Shown piece after piece: positions 305-10,811 of a DNA stretch of 36,758 nucleotides; the stretch's first letter is position 1; each line of letters opens with the position of its first letter. The DNA comes from Gloeocapsopsis crepidinum LEGE 06123. Lineage in GTDB: Bacteria > Cyanobacteriota > Cyanobacteriia > Cyanobacteriales > Chroococcidiopsidaceae. The notes under the pieces are model-generated. The model searched no databases. It was not told where the DNA came from and was given only the letters and a program-made list of their open reading frames with translations. Location of the stretch: the NCBI RefSeq assembly GCF_015207655.1, contig NZ_JADEWN010000065.1, forward strand, positions 1-36,758, read 5' to 3'. A program made the position numbers and the translations under genes.

Positions 305-337
305 TAAAAAAATCCTCATTCCCTTAGAGAAATGAGG
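305..337 (-). terminator. Rho-independent terminator of the guanidine operon
   Basis: Read on the minus strand, CCTCATT (complement of 331-337) and AATGAGG (complement of 314-320) form a 7-bp stem around a 10-nt loop, followed by a run of seven T (complement of 306-312). It starts 25 nt after the stop codon of the ATPase gene, the last gene of the operon. Confidence 0.7.
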
Positions 338-362
338 TAATATCAGTTCTCAAATTGTGTAA

Positions 363-1139
363 TTAGCAGGGCACTACTTCTGGCAATTCCTCATCGCGGA
401 GTAAATTAAGCACCATTTCTTTGTGATCCTGAAAGACAGAATGCTTTTTTGAGTGATAAGTGCGATCGCCTGGTAAATCCATGTTTACTTCAGTTTTAAT
501 TGTGCCTGGACGAGAAGTCATAACGTAGAGACGTTGCGAAAGAAAAAGTGCTTCTTCTACATCATGAGTAATCATTAAAATTGTTGTTCCCGTACGCTGC
601 CACAACTCAAGTAGGAATTGTTGCATTCTCTCTTTTGTTTGGGCATCTAAAGCACCAAACGGCTCATCCATAAGTAATATTCTTGGTTGAGATGCTAAAG
701 CCCGTGCGATCGCCACACGCTGCTGCATTCCTCCAGACAGTTCTTTGGGTAAAGCATGAGCAAATTGAGTTAATCCGACAATATCCAAATAGTACGCAAT
801 TTGTTCGCGTCGTTTAGCAGTAGGAACACCTTGCAACTTTAATCCAAAGCCAACATTTTGCGCTACACTCATCCACGGATAAAGCGTATACTTTTGAAAT
901 ACCATCCCTCGATCAGCTCCTGGTCCTGTCACAGAAACACCATTAACCTTGATTTCACCCGATGTCGGAGTATCCAACCCAGCAATCAATCGCAGTAGAG
1001 TGGATTTTCCTGAACCAGAAGCTCCTACAGCACAAACAAACTCACCTTGCTCAATTTTTAAATTAATATTTTGTAGCGCAACTAATGTCCCTTTTTTAGT
1101 CTTAAAATGTTTATGTAAGTTATGAACTGATAAATTCAT
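363..1139 (-). CDS. ABC transporter ATP-binding protein (probable guanidine importer)
   Basis: Cytoplasmic ATPase of a nitrate/sulfonate/taurine-type (SsuB/TauB/NrtD) importer, 258 aa. Visible motifs are Walker A GASGSGKST (about 39-47), a Q-loop (MVFQKY), the signature LSGGMQQR (about 134) and Walker B ILLMDEP followed by a switch His (ITHDVEEAL). I choose the ATG at 1139 over the TTG one codon upstream because AAGGA lies 6 nt before it. It is last in the operon, 25 nt after the permease stop, and is followed directly by a terminator. Family membership is clear. The substrate is inferred from the riboswitch and GdmH upstream; the equivalent Synechocystis genes (sll1080-sll1082) sit in the same order after sll1077-sll1079. 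Confidence 0.93.
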   Translation of the reverse strand: MNLSVHNLHKHFKTKKGTLVALQNINLKIEQGEFVCAVGASGSGKSTLLRLIAGLDTPTSGEIKVNGVSVTGPGADRGMVFQKYTLYPWMSVAQNVGFGLKLQGVPTAKRREQIAYYLDIVGLTQFAHALPKELSGGMQQRVAIARALASQPRILLMDEPFGALDAQTKERMQQFLLELWQRTGTTILMITHDVEEALFLSQRLYVMTSRPGTIKTEVNMDLPGDRTYHSKKHSVFQDHKEMVLNLLRDEELPEVVPC

Positions 1140-1164
1140 CAACTGTCCTTCATCTTATAGAAAA

Positions 1165-1983
1165 TTATTTATTTACCCAACGAGCAGAAACTCTTAAAAG
1201 TAAACGAAAAAATAAATCAATAGTTAAACCAATAATACCAATAACAATTATTCCAGCAAAGATTTCATCTGTTCTTAAATACCTTTGAGCTATACTGATT
1301 CTACGTCCTAAACCTGTTGTAGCAGCAATCAATTCAGCAACAATTACTAAATTCCATGAAGCAGCCATGTTGACGCGGCAAGAATCAATAATGCTTGGTA
1401 AAACATAGGGAGTAATAACTTGAAGTAAAACTTGTTTTCGTAATCCTCCTAATGTGTAAGTTGTCTCTACTAGTTCTTTAGGAACAAATTTCACTGCATC
1501 CATTATCATCAAGGTATTGAAAAACAAGGTTCCAATAAAAATTAAAAGAATTTTAGGTAATTCACCTAATCCAAAATAGAGAATGAGTAAAGGAATGAAC
1601 GCAGGTGCTGGCATATAGCGCACAATACCAATGACAGGTTCCATCAAAGCACGAATACTATTAAATGTACCCATCAAAATACCTAGTGGAATTGAAACTA
1701 TAGCTGCAAGCAAAAAACCACCCAAAACTCGAAAAATGCTAGCACCTATATCTTCGAGCAAAGTCCCATTTTGCCATAACCGTAAAAGTGCTTCGCCAAC
1801 AGCTAGAGGAGTAGGTAAAAATAAAGAATCTACCACCCCAGAATTAGAAACAATCCACCATAGCCCAAAAGGCACTGCGATCGACAAAAACATTAACGTC
1901 CAATTTAAGGACTGAGGAATATCTTCACCAATACGCCAAAAAATAGTTGGTGGCAGCGTTTTATGTGGAGGGGTAGAATTCAT
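1165..1983 (-). CDS. ABC transporter permease (probable guanidine importer)
   Basis: Integral membrane subunit of the importer, 272 aa, with about six hydrophobic segments. The cytoplasmic EAA-type loop that contacts the ATPase is visible around ELVETTYTLGGLRKQVLLQV. The frame stays open 44 codons further up, but those codons translate the heptameric repeat region (LITHNSTFITLITQHSTLHD), which is not protein-like. I therefore take the internal ATG at 1983, where the family-like sequence MNSTPPHKTLPP begins. No clear Shine-Dalgarno precedes it. It lies between the binding-protein and ATPase genes on the same strand. The substrate is inferred from context only. Confidence 0.9.
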   Translation of the reverse strand: MNSTPPHKTLPPTIFWRIGEDIPQSLNWTLMFLSIAVPFGLWWIVSNSGVVDSLFLPTPLAVGEALLRLWQNGTLLEDIGASIFRVLGGFLLAAIVSIPLGILMGTFNSIRALMEPVIGIVRYMPAPAFIPLLILYFGLGELPKILLIFIGTLFFNTLMIMDAVKFVPKELVETTYTLGGLRKQVLLQVITPYVLPSIIDSCRVNMAASWNLVIVAELIAATTGLGRRISIAQRYLRTDEIFAGIIVIGIIGLTIDLFFRLLLRVSARWVNK

Positions 1984-2003
1984 AAAGAGTGTTAAGTCGT
2001 GAA

Positions 2004-2168
2004 GTGTTGAGTGTTGAGTTATGAGAGTTATGAATGTTGAGTTATGAGTTATGAGTTTAAGAGAAGTTTTGAAATTTCTTTTAATTAATTCAAAACTCAC
2101 GCATTCACAACTCAAAACTTAAAATAAATGCTTCCGGCACCCTCCTTCGCGAACACAACTCAAAACTT
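2004..2168. repeat. Short tandem heptamer repeats plus a 15-nt direct repeat
   Basis: From 2004 to about 2056 the plus strand is a run of near-identical 7-mers (GTGTTGA, GTGTTGA, GTTATGA and variants). Complementary pieces (AACTC/CAAAACT) follow at 2089-2120, so the region can fold on itself. A 15-nt direct repeat CACAACTCAAAACTT occurs at 2106-2120 and 2154-2168. This matches the STRR class known from cyanobacterial intergenic DNA. It separates the binding-protein and permease genes within the operon. Confidence 0.75.
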
Positions 2169-2181
2169 TCTAAAGACATGA

Positions 2182-3213
2182 CTAACCTTTGTGGGAAGCA
2201 GCATAAGCTTTCACAAACCGATCGTCAAACATACGTGATAAATCTGGAGTACGCTTGATTAGGTCAGCTTCCAAAAGAAAGTTGTTAATTTCTTTAGCTG
2301 CATAGTGTAACGAATTCATATCATTTCCTGGTTGAAAAGCTTGTAAGTTTTGCTCTACAGTAAAAATTGTTGTACCCGCATCATAGGTTTTATAGTCTTC
2401 AACTGAAACACCAGCTCTTTGAGCCATAATTTCCAGAGATTTCTCTTGGTTTGCTTGCACAAAGTCTAAAGTATCAAACCACGTATTTACAAGTGCTTGG
2501 ACGTCTTGTGGACGCTCATTTATCATTTTGCGGCTAACAACTAAATGGTCTGGAATTGCACCAGGAAAGTCTTTGGAACTGAATAATTCTTTGCTACCAG
2601 GGCGTTCTAATGCTTTAGTTGTAAATGGAGCATAAACTGCTGCTGCATCAACTCTTCCTGCGGCAAATGCTGCGGCTGCTGCACCTGTTTCTAAAGGTAA
2701 GAATTCAACATCTGCTTGAGTCATACCAGCTTCTTTCATTCCTAAAAGTAGTAGGAAATGATCTACAGTTCCTTCTTCTGCGGCAACTTTTTTACCTCTC
2801 AAATCAGTAATACTATTAATTCCTTCACGAACAATAATTTTGTCATTACCAGTTGAGTTGTCATTGACTAAAACAACAACTTGATCAGAGGCATTCGATA
2901 CTGAACTAATTGTTTGATCTAAAGTTTGGCAGTTAGCATCTAATTGACCTGCATTCATGGCATTCATAGAATCTAAGTAACCATCAAACCATCTCAGATC
3001 TACTTGGACATTATTTGCAGCAAATAAATTTTGTTCATTGGCAACTGCCCAAGGAAACCAACCAGGCCAACCACTATAACCCATTTGAACTGGTGTACTT
3101 GTTGCAGTAGTATTAGTAGCTTGTTGTGAAGGGGTACAACTAACAGCAACAGTTAAACTTACTAGAAATATGCTTATAAGCGATAATAATTTATGTATTT
3201 TCATTGTTTTCAT
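2182..3213 (-). CDS. ABC transporter substrate-binding lipoprotein (probable guanidine binding)
   Basis: Extracytoplasmic binding protein of 343 aa in the NMT1/SsuA-like family (type II periplasmic fold). Residues 1-26 form a lipoprotein signal: basic start, hydrophobic core LLSLISIFLVSLTVAV and a cysteine at 26 in a relaxed lipobox (VAVSC). The body has the family pattern, including GYSGWPGWFPWAVANEQNLF and the DLRGKKVAAEEGTVDHFLL segment. It starts 75 nt after hypB and precedes the permease across the repeat tract. Tethered outside the membrane, it would deliver substrate to the permease. Guanidine as ligand is inferred from operon context; nitrate-, sulfonate- or thiamine-precursor-type ligands are the family alternatives. 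Confidence 0.9.
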   Translation of the reverse strand: MKTMKIHKLLSLISIFLVSLTVAVSCTPSQQATNTTATSTPVQMGYSGWPGWFPWAVANEQNLFAANNVQVDLRWFDGYLDSMNAMNAGQLDANCQTLDQTISSVSNASDQVVVLVNDNSTGNDKIIVREGINSITDLRGKKVAAEEGTVDHFLLLLGMKEAGMTQADVEFLPLETGAAAAAFAAGRVDAAAVYAPFTTKALERPGSKELFSSKDFPGAIPDHLVVSRKMINERPQDVQALVNTWFDTLDFVQANQEKSLEIMAQRAGVSVEDYKTYDAGTTIFTVEQNLQAFQPGNDMNSLHYAAKEINNFLLEADLIKRTPDLSRMFDDRFVKAYAASHKG

Positions 3214-3288
3214 CTATAAAATATGTAAAAAGTAATTTAAAATTATAGATGCTAGCAATCAAGAAGTTACTAGCAATCTATTTATGTT

Positions 3289-3990
3289 TTAGGTCAAGCT
3301 CATAACTGATTTTGCAGTATTTGACTGCACAGCATTTCGCAGCCAATTAAACCAGTTTTCTAGACCGTCATTAGTTTTGGCAGAAACCTGAATAATTGTG
3401 ACATGAGGATTCATTTGACGAACATTTGCCTCTATTTGACTTATGTCAATTTCCAAATAAGGAGCTAAGTCAGTTTTTGTAATTAGCAAACAGTCTGCTT
3501 CTTGAAACATGACAGGATATTTAAGTGGCTTATCTTCTCCTTCTGTAACGCTGAGTAGCGCTACTTTAGCGTGTTCTCCTACTTCAAATTCTGCGGGACA
3601 AACCAAGTTACCTACGTTTTCTACTAGTAATAAATCAAAGTCTGACGGGTTATATTCGTGTGCGAGGCAATGAATTCCTCCTGCAACCATTTTGGAATCA
3701 AGATGACAAGAACGCCCCGTGTTAATTGCAATAACAGGAACATTGTATTGCCGCAAGCGATTTGCATCTAACTCTGTGGTCATATCTCCTTCAATGACAG
3801 CAATTTTAAACTCGTTGGTCAAAGCTGCCAAAGTTCTCTCTAATAAAACAGTTTTCCCTGCACCAGGGCTACTCATAACATTTAGGCAAATAATTCCCCA
3901 CTGATCGAAATGAGCGCGATTGTGTTCTGCGCCTTGCTGATTAGCATGGAGTAAATTAATGCCCAATGCAGCGTCAAAAGTTTGGTGCAT
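3289..3990 (-). CDS. hypB: HypB-family GTPase, nickel insertion factor for the guanidine hydrolase
   Basis: SIMIBI-class GTPase of 233 aa. Motifs: P-loop SSPGAGKT (40-47), [11 protein letters not shown] switch region, TKTDL base-recognition motif. The G-domain metal site known from HypB is present as Cys95-His96 (NTGRSCHLD) and Cys131 (NLVCPAEF). It lacks the long His-rich stretch or CxxCGC start seen in some hydrogenase HypBs, so it looks like the compact version. Its start overlaps the hypA end by 17 nt, a sign of translational coupling. In Synechocystis the homologue beside the guanidine hydrolase is an activating factor (GhaB) for nickel loading. No hydrogenase gene is in the window, which fits a hydrolase-dedicated role. 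Confidence 0.92.
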
Positions 3991-4354
3991 AAGTATCCTC
4001 TATTGTGTTAGTTGAGTATTCAACGCGGTCAATTTTGAGTTCTCGTCCTGAACGAATGTCTTCCATTGGAGAATGACATTGAGGACAAGCATATTGAATA
4101 CCAATTTCAGGATGATATTCTTGTTGGCAGTGGTGACAAAAGGCAATTAAAGGTGTTTCTCTAATACTTAATTTGGTTCCTTCTAAAAATGTGTTTTGAC
4201 TTTGCACCTCAAAAGCAAACTGCAAACTCAGAGGTTCTACGCAAGTAAATTTGCCAACAACTAGATGAACACAGGATATTTTCGGTTCTGATTGAGCTTT
4301 CCACCAATCTTGCAGCGTTGCAATTAACGCCTTAGTCATATCAGTTTCATGCAT
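3974..4354 (-). CDS. hypA: HypA-like nickel metallochaperone for the guanidine hydrolase
   Basis: 126 aa protein of the HypA family. It begins MHE, where His2 is the conserved nickel ligand of HypA. It carries the structural zinc site as two CxxC pairs, Cys73/Cys76 and Cys90/Cys93, 14 residues apart. The start lies just 3 nt beyond the stop of the hydrolase gene, and the 3' end overlaps hypB. HypA passes nickel to a target enzyme together with HypB. Here the target is inferred to be the adjacent ureohydrolase, matching the GhaA role described for Synechocystis. Confidence 0.93.
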
Positions 4355-4357
4355 CTT

Positions 4358-5536
4358 CTACTGCCACTCACTGATAACTTCAGGTGTTGCTTCAGGATGG
4401 ATGTAAGCTGGTTTCTCTTTTCGGGGTAGTTGTCCTGAAATAACTAAATGCGCCATCGTGTCGCAAATTACGCGAGTTGCCATTAGTGCAGTCATGTCGC
4501 TGACATCGTAAGGTGGAGAAACTTCAACGACTTCTAAACCGCATACTGGGGCTTTTTGAACAATTTTACCGAGTAGATAAAGTGCTTCCCTAGGTAATAA
4601 ACCACCTGGTTCAGGCCAGCCTGTGCCAGGGACAAATCCGGCATCGATACAGTCAATGTCAAAACTAATATAAACGCAGTCAGTACCATCTAACGCTCGT
4701 TCTAGAGCAAATTCCACTGCTGTATCTAAGCCCATTTCGGTGATGTCAGTAACAGTGAGAATATTGGTAGCGCGATCGCGGCATACTTTAACACCTGCAC
4801 GTGGAACTTGCCAACCGCCGATTCCTAATTGCACTAAATTTTTTGCAGGGGCATTTTTAATATTTGTTGCGTGAAACCAAGGACAGGTGTGCATTCTTTC
4901 ATCTAAGTCCGTCTCTTGCGTATCTACGTGGCGATCAAAGTGAATAATTCCTACTTTTTTATCGCCTAAGTGACGGCAGACTCCACGTACTGTAGGAAAA
5001 CCAATTGAATGATCTCCTCCTAAAATAATGGGAAAAGCGCCCGAACCAAAAATATGGGCAATACCTTTAGAAATTTGATCGAAAGACTTCTCGTTGTTGC
5101 CAGGAATTGTGAAAACATCACCAACATCACACAAAGTTATTTGTTCGCGTAGATCAACACCGAGTTCAAAGTTATATGGTGTATATAAAGCAGAAATGCG
5201 ACGAATACCCTGCGGACCAAATCGCGTTCCTGGGCGGTAAGTCGTACCTGAATCATGTGGCACACCAACGATCGCTACGTCATATTCACCTACTTTACGA
5301 ACATCTTCGATGTAAGGTGCTTTCAGGAAAGTATTGATACCTGCGTAGTGAGGTAATTCACCGCGAGAGAATGTAGAAATTGTGCGATCGCGAATGCTTT
5401 CTGCAGCTTCTAACCCAAACTCTAAACCACGCGAAACTTCTTGTTGCCAGCCTGTAAAAGATAACTGAGTCTCTTTTTCTAAAGCTCTTTGTGCTTCAGT
5501 AGAATTCTGTTCGGAAGGGCGTTCGCCTTGTGTCAT
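4358..5536 (-). CDS. gdmH: Guanidine hydrolase (GdmH-type ureohydrolase, nickel-dependent)
   Basis: Cytoplasmic enzyme of the arginase/agmatinase fold, 392 aa, predicted to hydrolyse guanidine to urea and ammonia. All six metal ligands of the family are visible: His in GGDHS (173-177), Asp201/His203/Asp205 in HFDRHVD, and Asp293/Asp295 in SFDIDCIDAGFVPGTG. The usual DAHxD reads DRHVD, and the protein has an N-terminal extension of about 80 residues compared with agmatinases. As I recall, both features match Synechocystis Sll1077, the reported Ni-dependent guanidine hydrolase. I choose the ATG at 5536, which has AGGA 7 nt upstream, over the TTG at 5551. The guanidine riboswitch in its leader and hypA/hypB downstream support guanidine over agmatine as substrate. 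Confidence 0.92.
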   Translation of the reverse strand: MTQGERPSEQNSTEAQRALEKETQLSFTGWQQEVSRGLEFGLEAAESIRDRTISTFSRGELPHYAGINTFLKAPYIEDVRKVGEYDVAIVGVPHDSGTTYRPGTRFGPQGIRRISALYTPYNFELGVDLREQITLCDVGDVFTIPGNNEKSFDQISKGIAHIFGSGAFPIILGGDHSIGFPTVRGVCRHLGDKKVGIIHFDRHVDTQETDLDERMHTCPWFHATNIKNAPAKNLVQLGIGGWQVPRAGVKVCRDRATNILTVTDITEMGLDTAVEFALERALDGTDCVYISFDIDCIDAGFVPGTGWPEPGGLLPREALYLLGKIVQKAPVCGLEVVEVSPPYDVSDMTALMATRVICDTMAHLVISGQLPRKEKPAYIHPEATPEVISEWQ

Positions 5537-5589
5537 GTCTCTATCCTGCAAGTTTCAAGTTACAACCAGATTATTACTTCTAGCAATAC

Positions 5590-5649
5590 AAAAGCCCGGA
5601 CAGCCAGTCACAGTAGTTGTACTGTTTTGTGTCTCTCCCGGGCTTTTTT
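5590..5649 (-). terminator. Riboswitch-controlled intrinsic terminator
   Basis: In the minus-strand RNA, AAAAGCCCGG (complement of 5638-5647) pairs perfectly over 10 bp with CCGGGCUUUU (complement of 5590-5599). The closed loop holds a second hairpin, ACAGUA/UACUGU around CAAC. The stem ends in UUUUGU. Its 5' arm is the conserved 3' end of the guanidine-I aptamer, so aptamer folding and terminator folding exclude each other. Guanidine binding should therefore permit read-through into gdmH, the ON logic known for ykkC leaders. Confidence 0.8.
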
Positions 5650-5756
5650 CCCGCCGTGTACCGCCTAGTTCTTTCGACTTCCAGGCTGGCTGCTTCTCTT
5701 GGACCAGTCATTTAAATTTCCAATAATTCTGATAATTTAAACCGGAACCCTAGAAG
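5632..5756 (-). promoter_or_regulatory. Guanidine-I riboswitch (ykkC class)
   Basis: Reading the minus strand from 5756, the leader shows the three conserved ykkC blocks in order: CUAGGGUUCCGG, then GACUGGUCCAAGAG, then ACACGGCGGGA followed by AAAAAGCCCGGGAGAG. Spacing and order match the guanidine-I aptamer consensus. Between the last two blocks lies the variable stem region. It ends about 96 nt before the gdmH start and overlaps the 5' arm of the downstream terminator. This identifies free guanidine as the inducing ligand for the whole operon. Confidence 0.95.
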
Positions 5757-8868: not shown

Positions 8869-9318
8869 TTATTTCTGTGCAGCTTTTGCTTGGAGTGCAT
8901 AGTCGCGGAAGCGTTCTAAATCTGCTTTAATCGTTGATTCCACCGCACGACCAAGGAATAGATTATCCATAATTTTACCTAAAATACCAGGGATTGCGTA
9001 GGAGATAGAAAGTTTAACAATACTGGTGTTGTGGCGATCGTAAAAGCGAATTGCGCCGCGGTTGGGCAATCCATCAACTGATTCCCATTGAATAATTTGC
9101 TGGGGAACCATTTTGAGAATTCGCGATAGCCATGTGAACTCTAATCCCCCGGTATTGAGCTTCCAGCGAGAGAGTTCAGGATTATCTTCTAAAACCTTAA
9201 CTGATGAAATCCACTTCATCCACCGAGGCATCTGCTCAAGATCAGACCACAAACTCCACACGAGATCAATGGGTGCATCCACCTCAACCTGCACGCTATG
9301 TTCTAACCAATCTGGCAT
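8869..9318 (-). CDS. SRPBCC (START/cyclase-like) family protein linked to crtQ
   Basis: 149 aa, soluble, helix-grip fold. It opens with HSVQVEVDAPIDLVWSLWSDLEQMPRWMKWISSV, the typical start of polyketide cyclase/dehydrase-like SRPBCC proteins, and has IIQWESVDGLPNRGAIRFYD as the central beta sheet. These proteins bind hydrophobic ligands. It starts 29 nt after the crtQ stop and is surely in the same transcript. From memory this pairing with zeta-carotene desaturase recurs in cyanobacteria, suggesting help in carotenoid handling; no direct role is demonstrated by the sequence. Confidence 0.88.
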   Translation of the reverse strand: MPDWLEHSVQVEVDAPIDLVWSLWSDLEQMPRWMKWISSVKVLEDNPELSRWKLNTGGLEFTWLSRILKMVPQQIIQWESVDGLPNRGAIRFYDRHNTSIVKLSISYAIPGILGKIMDNLFLGRAVESTIKADLERFRDYALQAKAAQK

Positions 9319-9347
9319 TCGATATATTCCTTTGTGTTTGCTGTGGT

Positions 9348-10811
9348 TTAACTACCAACCGCTGAAGGTTGGGGACTAACGGCTACTGTGCTTTCCAAAA
9401 TTGCTTTAGCTGCAAGGCGTCCAGATAAAGTAGCGCCTTCCATACTATCGATATAGTCTTGCTGGGTGTAACTACCCGCGAGGAAAAAGTTTTCCACAGG
9501 TGTTTTTTGAGGTGGGCGATAGGGGTCCATCCCAGGGGCTTCGCGATAGAGTGATTGTGCTAGTTTGACAACGTTATACCACGTCATGTTTAGGTGACGA
9601 GAAGAAGGAAACAACTCATGGACTTGCTGCAAAACATGATGTGTGATCGCCTCGTTACTTTGTTTGATAAAAGGATCTCCAGGAGTCAGTACAAGTTGCA
9701 TCAATGAACCTTGTCCCTCACGATAATAATCGCTAGGGCTAGTCAATGCTAGGTCAGCGAAGCAAGAAAAATCAGCATCGGGAGTGTATAGCAAATTATC
9801 CATACCCGCAGCACGATCGAGTTGCTGGCGTTCGGTGGCATTGTGTAATTCTGTCACCCAACCATCAAATCGCAGTTGTACAGTAGCAACGGGAACTGTA
9901 TCTAATTTATAAATATTGTCAAATTCTGTCCACTTGCGCCATTGTTGTGGTAATAAACGCTGAACCCCTGGGACATCACACGCACACACGTAAGCATCCG
10001 CAGTCATTATTGCTTCAGTGTCCCCTTGCGCAATAACTAATCCTGTGACGCGAGTCGGTGCTTCAGCGAACTGAATTTCTCGGACACGGCGACGAGTATA
10101 AATTTTGGCTCCCCGTGCTTCTAAGTAATCAATAATTGGCTTGTGTAAGTATTCATAAGGCGAACCTTCAAGCATTCGCAATACTGATGCTTCAGTACGT
10201 GCAGCAAACATTTGAAAGATTGTCAGCATACACCGTGCTGAAATATTTTCGGTATCAATAAAGCCTAGCGCGTAAGCAATTGGATTCCACATTCTCTCTA
10301 AGCTACCTTGCGAACCTCCCTGGCGGCGAAACCAATCAGCAAAGCTGACATCATCCAAATTTCGGATTGTTGTCATTGCGCCGTCGAAGTCTACCAACCC
10401 GCGGACAATGGGACTTGTTCCAAGTGCGATTGCATTTTGGATTTTATCTTGTACGGATAATTGCGATGTAGTAAAAAAGGCTTTTAAGCCGTTGAAAGGT
10501 GCGCCGGTGAGAAAACGAAAATCTAAGGCTCCGGTTTTTCCTCCCTTGTTGATAAAGGTATGGATATGCTCTTTGAGGCGGAGATTTTGATCGGCTCCTA
10601 CTTTCTTCATTAATTCAAATAGTTGGTAGTAGTTACCGAAAAAGACGTGGAGTCCCATTTCAACATGATTGCCATCGGTATCTATCCAACTGCCGACCTT
10701 ACCACCAACAAACGGGCGAGATTCAAAAATTTCTACTTCCCACCCAGCATCTGCTAAATCTACGGCGGTTGCTAGCCCAGCCAACCCCGCTCCGACGATT
10801 GCAACGCGCAT
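9348..10811 (-). CDS. crtQ: Zeta-carotene desaturase
   Basis: 487 aa FAD enzyme of the plant/cyanobacterial CrtQ/ZDS type, which desaturates zeta-carotene via neurosporene to lycopene at the thylakoid or plasma membrane. The N-terminal dinucleotide-binding motif is [21 protein letters not shown] (3-23) with the acidic residue of [16 protein letters not shown] after it. The C-terminal FAD motif is visible as [20 protein letters not shown]. The sequence [20 protein letters not shown] is characteristic of ZDS rather than bacterial CrtI. First gene of a two-gene unit with the SRPBCC protein. Confidence 0.96.

Follow-up and report, generated by a model that had tools for sequence, protein, structure and literature searches.

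In Gloeocapsopsis crepidinum LEGE 06123, the contig NZ_JADEWN010000065.1, analysed over its whole length of 36,758 nucleotides (hereafter the window; C103 in a nomenclature in which G stands for a genome, L for a locus, and C for a contig of the strain's own genome), carries on its minus strand a gene set headed by a guanidine-I (ykkC) riboswitch and coding for a predicted guanidine hydrolase, two nickel chaperones, and an ATP-binding cassette (ABC) importer. In the direction of reading, the riboswitch aptamer (5764-5633) and an expression platform that shares the 3' arm of its hairpin P3 (5647-5590) precede gdmH (4358-5551; PF00491, 260.7 bits), which codes for an arginase-family protein and starts with either TTG at 5551 or ATG at 5536. 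The next genes code for a hypA-type nickel chaperone (3974-4354; PF01155, and TIGR00100 with 121.2 bits over a cut-off of 88.1) and for a hypB-type nickel GTPase (3289-3990; TIGR00073, 313.4 bits over a cut-off of 121.2), whose reading frame overlaps hypA by 17 bases. Beyond a terminator-like hairpin (3275-3250), the importer is encoded by the gene of a lipoprotein binding protein of the SsuA/NMT1 type with a lipobox cysteine at position 26 (2182-3213; TIGR01728, 232.1 bits over a cut-off of 163.5), an intergenic stretch of 198 bases that contains a dispersed repeat (1984-2181), the permease gene (1165-1983; PF00528, 87.8 bits), and the ATPase gene (363-1142; PF00005, 120.2 bits). The permease starts with ATG at 1983, the longer TTG frame to 2115 entering the repeat.

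A hairpin of 10 pairs with a T-rich tail (337-314, minus strand; -12.5 kcal/mol; tail ATTTTTTTAT) closes the operon, although the terminator scan as a whole, which covers both this match and the one at 3275-3250, returned five hits against 4.1 expected and is not above chance. The preliminary description had read from the letters a riboswitch-led, one-strand operon of gdmH, hypA, hypB, lipoprotein, permease, and ATPase genes with a closing terminator, and the Rfam, Pfam, and NCBIfam profiles bear it out. Its span of 305-5756 holds for the contents and fails at the upper end, where it trims the aptamer by 8 bases. The operon can be called complete for uptake and the first hydrolysis; the urease, represented by its alpha subunit gene, lies elsewhere (C72), and a second riboswitch-controlled importer is located on C12.

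The riboswitch is the only match in the window at the Rfam gathering threshold: a covariance-model search aligns the full guanidine-I model RF00442 (1-107) to 5764-5633 on the minus strand with 74.9 bits (gathering score 63, E 1e-11), in keeping with the ykkC element proposed beforehand. In minimum-energy folds, the aptamer folded alone retains the 3' hairpin P3, and the whole leader forms a terminator with arms at 5647-5637, which is the 3' arm of P3, and at 5600-5590, followed by TTTT. The paired arm and T tract of the window leader were reached by none of 200 shuffles, and by 0 and 1 of 200 in the two congeneric genomes; over 40 riboswitch places, which are the best matches of relatives, several from one genus and hence not independent, shuffles reached such an arrangement at most twice in 200 in 33 cases, the window included. 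Because the P3/terminator arrangement beats the shuffles at these 33 places, the leader is likely a transcriptional ON switch.

The arginase-family protein matches the solved guanidinases far better than any other enzyme of known structure. Specifically, a phmmer search against the PDB gave 774 bits to 7esr/7oi1 and 591 bits to 9fek, with every other listed entry at 166 bits or less; 7OI1 is the Synechocystis GdmH and 9FEK the Nitrospira inopinata guanidinase (PMC11410670). The latter source lists H182, D207, H209, D211, D299, and D301 as metal ligands and proposes T105, H222, W313, and E344 as guanidinase residues, with T105 and W313 as the classifying pair. In the alignment, all ten are kept in the window protein, as H181, D206, H208, D210, D298, and D300 and as T104, H221, W312, and E343, respectively, the numbering of the paper being related to that of the chain by an offset of two that was derived by hand and fits all ten. 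The agmatinase model TIGR01230 is passed as well, by 2.3 bits (176.6 against a cut-off of 174.3), and Sll1077 was itself formerly annotated as an agmatinase (PMC8390497); this pass is outweighed, on sequence scores, by the 774-bit match to a solved guanidinase. The assignment of the window protein as GdmH, a nickel-dependent guanidine hydrolase, is supported by these comparisons of sequence, and guanidinases act on guanidine itself (PMC11410670). Agmatine and arginine were considered as substrates and rejected on the PDB scores and the residue check, so that the earlier preference for guanidine, originally drawn from the riboswitch, now rests on the aptamer, the scores, and the residues together. 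The genome contains one gdmH at E 1e-100 or better, and a second arginase-family gene, on C63, could code for an agmatinase.

The genome carries a second hypA/hypB pair on C150, together with HoxU, a hydrogenase maturation protease, and hypF (the last recognized by eye). On the same contig, a 159-residue frame fuses the ends of a small-subunit-like and a large-subunit-like hydrogenase, and PF00374 finds no hydrogenase large subunit in the genome; HoxU, this frame, the protease gene, hypA, and hypB together occupy L195:3425-6714. The [NiFe]-hydrogenase large subunit thus seems to have been deleted, an assembly error being the alternative; since this hydrogenase looks deleted, the hypA and hypB of the operon most likely serve GdmH.

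As for the importer, a complete set of binding protein, permease, and ATPase lies behind the riboswitch in the window, and the same architecture recurs on C12, where a second guanidine-I riboswitch (77.3 bits) precedes a stand-alone set whose products share 60 (binding protein), 65 (permease), and 67 percent (ATPase) identity with those of the window. Both loci, the gdmH operon and the stand-alone importer, are also found in the two congeneric genomes. The lipobox cysteine is present in 47 of 47 rows of the binding-protein family, and many residues are near-invariant over these 47 proteins of both importer types (counted with the L101 protein, 28 percent identical, set aside), although residue conservation alone names no ligand. 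TIGR03427, the model of urea-carboxylase-linked binding proteins with a cut-off of 333.9, scores 144.4 for the window protein and 168.9 for that of C12.

Binding proteins of the C12 type fall in a clade, termed B, of 26 rows with an SH-aLRT support of 99, whereas the window protein branches elsewhere, with those of Aliterella, Nostocales, and others (support 82-86). This tree and that of gdmH are quick ones supported by SH-aLRT only, built without matches below 80 percent of the query, without ATPases less than 50 percent identical, and without four loci from genomes already represented. Clade B includes 13 named gdmH loci, 11 with the usual gene order and two (L092 and L093) with the importer on the other side of gdmH. 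Importers resembling those of clade B also accompany the guanidine carboxylase route: G050 has one riboswitch before binding protein, permease, ATPase, UAAP1, UAAP2, and carboxylase genes, while in G155, G205, and G278 the importer and the UAAP1-UAAP2-carboxylase genes are divergent with a riboswitch for each (the binding proteins of these three genomes were assigned by their best match to clade B, outside the tree; UAAP1, UAAP2, and the carboxylase were named by NCBIfam in G004 and elsewhere by similarity to those of G004). Because importers of one type go with two ways of degrading guanidine that are unrelated to each other, a clade-B-type importer would be expected to move guanidine, and this is the best argument that sequence offers for guanidine transport. 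By kinship, the importer of the window most likely transports guanidine as well; the preliminary description had deduced a guanidine transporter from the riboswitch, and this is sustained, still as a deduction, by related importers that lie behind guanidine-I riboswitches, some next to gdmH and others next to carboxyguanidine deiminase/guanidine carboxylase genes. UAAP1 was not found in the strain's own genome, and the second importer is possibly the leftover of a lost carboxylase module, its clade occurring with both routes.

Several other genes are associated with these riboswitches and importers. Next to the stand-alone importer of G002, on the other strand, lie genes for the urate hydroxylase HpxO, a xanthine permease, and a hydroxyisourate hydrolase (L035:8774-12574). 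At L208, L211, L214, and L218, guanidine-I riboswitches precede genes of SSS-like sodium/solute symporters, the unit of L218 being divergent from gdmH-hypA-hypB; the riboswitch precedes such a gene in G244, G291, G303, and G306, so importers under this riboswitch are not always of the ABC type (two of the four symporters were run against NCBIfam and matched the sodium/solute symporter model below its cut-off). In G306, a guanidine-I riboswitch is followed by a type III glutamine synthetase (TIGR03105, 593.6 bits) and a related ABC importer with a binding protein of 51 percent identity (L213:6624-11036). Lastly, a weak RF00442 match (41 bits) lies before an EamA-like transporter frame in G008 (L193:8516-8621) and is possibly a ykkC relative with another ligand.

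The operon is of a widespread, known type (PMC8390497, PMC12186494, PMC10119275). Among 80 named gdmH loci, the one-strand order gdmH-hypA-hypB-binding protein-permease-ATPase is found in 48, of which 45 have more than 5 kb of room and three lie nearer to a contig end; in Picosynechococcus PCC 7117, gdmH comes last. A riboswitch was recognized upstream of gdmH in 64 of the 78 loci with room, a count that rests on a short motif of our own making and not on the covariance model. At the level of genomes, gdmH at E 1e-100 or better is present in 35 of 60 and a guanidine-I match in 38 of 60, the strain's own included, and in 155 of 289 genomes of the class. The idea that a second riboswitch per genome is rare was discarded, as 67 of these 155 have at least two, counted by hand from the listing over the 289 genomes.

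The closest described counterpart is sll1077-sll1082 of Synechocystis sp. PCC 6803, with the same kinds of genes and a guanidine-I riboswitch (PMC8390497, PMC12186494). According to Wang et al. 2021 (PMC8390497), hypA, hypB, sll1080 of the SsuA family, sll1081, and sll1082 form operons with sll1077-type genes, and the review PMC12186494 treats operons of this kind and, for Synechocystis, ABC import. The match with this operon that the preliminary description proposed is right for the kinds of genes, and the order was seen in the 48 gdmH loci. The window GdmH is near the solved Synechocystis enzyme; the repeat between the binding-protein and permease genes and the second riboswitch-driven importer, both recorded in the strain's own genome, are candidate differences from Synechocystis. 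The marine Synechococcus/Prochlorococcus cluster (Pro-eCAG_004, Syn-eCAG_001; PMC10119275) is similar, with speB2/gdmH, hypA, hypB, and a TauABC-like transporter downstream of ykkC; most of those Synechococcus/Cyanobium genomes are reported there to carry a Rieske protein gene downstream, a comparison bounded in the window by the contig end 362 bases past the ATPase gene. The guanidinase locus of Nitrospira inopinata shares the guanidine-I riboswitch and a GdmH-type guanidinase, but, as described in PMC11410670, an APC-type permease replaces the ABC importer and nickel chaperones are not nearby. The guanidine carboxylase operons (UAAP1/UAAP2 and a TIGR02712 carboxylase; G050, G155, G205, G278) share the riboswitch and a related ABC importer and differ in the carboxylation route and its enzymes. 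Both routes of cyanobacterial guanidine breakdown, via urea and via carboxyguanidine, were already known, as PMC12930504 states them.

Taken together, the locus is read, with a probability of roughly 0.93, as an operon for nitrogen assimilation that guanidine induces, of the kind represented by sll1077-sll1082 in Synechocystis, on the strength of its aptamer, competing terminator, gene order, and enzyme identity. In the absence of guanidine, the competing terminator found in the leader would borrow the 3' arm of P3 and halt transcription before gdmH. Conversely, bound guanidine would hold P3 in the aptamer, block the terminator, and allow transcription of the operon, a switching that we infer for this leader in the cell. 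The lipoprotein, the permease, and the ATPase would then bring in guanidinium, by analogy with ABC import in Synechocystis and presuming that this particular lipoprotein binds it. HypA and HypB would supply nickel to GdmH, a chaperone role taken over from published relatives, as is the chemistry by which GdmH, with the active-site residues found in its sequence, would convert guanidine to urea and ammonium; the urease, present elsewhere in the genome, would free the remaining nitrogen.

A number of observations weigh against this reading. Seven of the 40 riboswitch places failed the terminator test (L004, L008, L015, L020, L028, and the carboxylase loci of G004 and G014), of which L015, L020, and L028 are near misses with 5 or 6 of 200 shuffles, and the T tract of the window terminator is short (TTTTGTATT). 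In 12 of the 80 named loci, all with more than 5 kb of room, gdmH-hypA-hypB occur without matching ABC genes in the locus, and in 14 of 78 loci the sequence before gdmH gave no hit to the short riboswitch motif; by these exceptions, the links of riboswitch and ABC genes with gdmH are frequent and not universal. The profile class of the binding protein is that of sulfonates (TIGR01728), a family name that does not reveal the ligand, and the importers that go with the carboxylase genes are of clade B, outside which the window's own importer lies. Finally, the dispersed repeat and a hairpin sit inside the operon, which leaves the cotranscription of the last genes a presumption.

Detoxification of internally made guanidine, in place of scavenging from outside, is the alternative that survives best and is nonetheless unlikely. 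It would agree with the report that Sll1077 mitigates guanidine toxicity (Wang et al. 2021, PMC8390497) and with the failure to find an SMR-type exporter in the genome, where other exporter families were not searched for; two importers under the same switch class fit uptake and hardly detoxification alone. Separate transcription of the three importer genes, with the operon interrupted by the hairpin at 3275-3250 and the repeat at 1984-2181, is distinctly improbable. The repeat has 49 matches in the genome, itself counted, and is shorter in G002, and the hairpin, which could be a processing site or a weak internal terminator, has a similar sequence in both other genomes of the genus (three genomes compared by eye); neither element shows that transcription stops, promoter-like matches in the region are no more frequent than by chance (17 against 15.0 expected), and the gene order is kept in 48 of 80 loci. 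The notion that the importer chiefly carries another compound (a substituted guanidine, or a sulfonate such as taurine) and shares no more than its induction with GdmH can draw on SsuA_fam as the best curated family of the binding protein (232.1 bits), on its score of 144.4 against the 333.9 of TIGR03427, and on the importer of C12 as the possible guanidine transporter, but is very improbable in view of the guanidine-I aptamers before both importers, the use of second-type importers with two unrelated routes that share guanidine as substrate, the many near-invariant residues across the 47 binding proteins of both types, and guanidine itself as the guanidinase substrate (PMC11410670).

A further comparison is with a close genus (g3: G004, G010, and G014), which adjoins the genus of the window in the binding-protein tree. 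In its three genomes gdmH was not found and UAAP1 is present in all, with UAAP1-UAAP2-carboxylase genes behind a riboswitch seen in G004 and G014. At the address of the window, recognized by Npun_F0494 and cobQ, g3 holds within 15 kb just a binding-protein gene, 87 percent identical to that of the window. The sequence upstream of it aligns to the window leader with scores of 109, 93, and 56 against shuffled maxima of 39, 37, and 46, L178 being weak, and a cmscan of L176 7700-9000 detected no guanidine riboswitch even at E 10. The lone gene keeps an intact reading frame in each of the three genomes and is under strong purifying selection, with a ratio of nonsynonymous to synonymous substitution rates (dN/dS) of 0.07-0.10 among them, compared with 0.09 between the window and G002. 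Because a lone conserved binding protein and riboswitch-like relics occupy the address, the hydrolase locus most likely decayed in g3 while the binding protein was retained. The clade-B importer locus, in turn, is syntenic across G001, G002, and g3 (G004 and G014 compared; the strain's own contig is too short for flanks).

Npun_F0494 and cobQ are neighbours of the locus in many cyanobacteria, Npun_F0494 being present at 24 of the 112 loci searched, among which two genomes are each counted twice, and the riboswitch-like relics of g3 occupy this address. In the gdmH tree, the genomes of the family do not form one group and the support near the window is modest (82), so that the tree settles little of the history of the operon; horizontal gain of the whole operon into the genus is a conceivable course that these observations do not support. 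Single genomes show further variants. In G008 (97 percent complete, 330 contigs), where neither gdmH nor UAAP1 was found, the address of the window holds a riboswitch and the importer alone (L180:7247-10327), and a fragment of gdmH in G015, with a split permease and an ATPase next to it, is apparently a decayed second copy of the operon (L042:6514-8641).

Lone relatives of the binding protein are also found near chemotaxis genes. In G008, one of 65 percent identity (9242-10267) lies with short gaps amid genes for methyl-accepting chemotaxis proteins with GAF and HAMP domains (L181:5823-17277) and is a possible taxis partner. In G037, the two genes downstream of a lone relative of 49 percent identity look like chemotaxis genes (L186:2641-7497); the ligand of this relative may differ, since several conserved residues are changed, as judged by eye. 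It could tentatively be proposed, as a minority view among the possible explanations, that guanidine-binding lipoproteins outlive their transporter: the g3 protein might now feed guanidine to the paralogous importer, in a genome with the carboxylase route, or might serve as a sensor; the binding proteins beside chemotaxis receptors in two cyanobacterial families would suggest taxis to guanidine or a related compound; and close genera would have kept different routes behind a shared importer.

The operon, which is well supported, adds a clear case of hydrolytic guanidine scavenging in another cyanobacterial genus and is in itself low in novelty; the comparative leads, namely the shared importers and the lone binding proteins, are the part worth following. 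More is gained from the comparison than from the operon, as related importers coupled to two chemically unrelated routes back guanidine transport with no need of a transport assay. The solitary binding proteins, in turn, offer a concrete test of whether one importer uses two binding proteins or whether cyanobacteria steer to guanidine.

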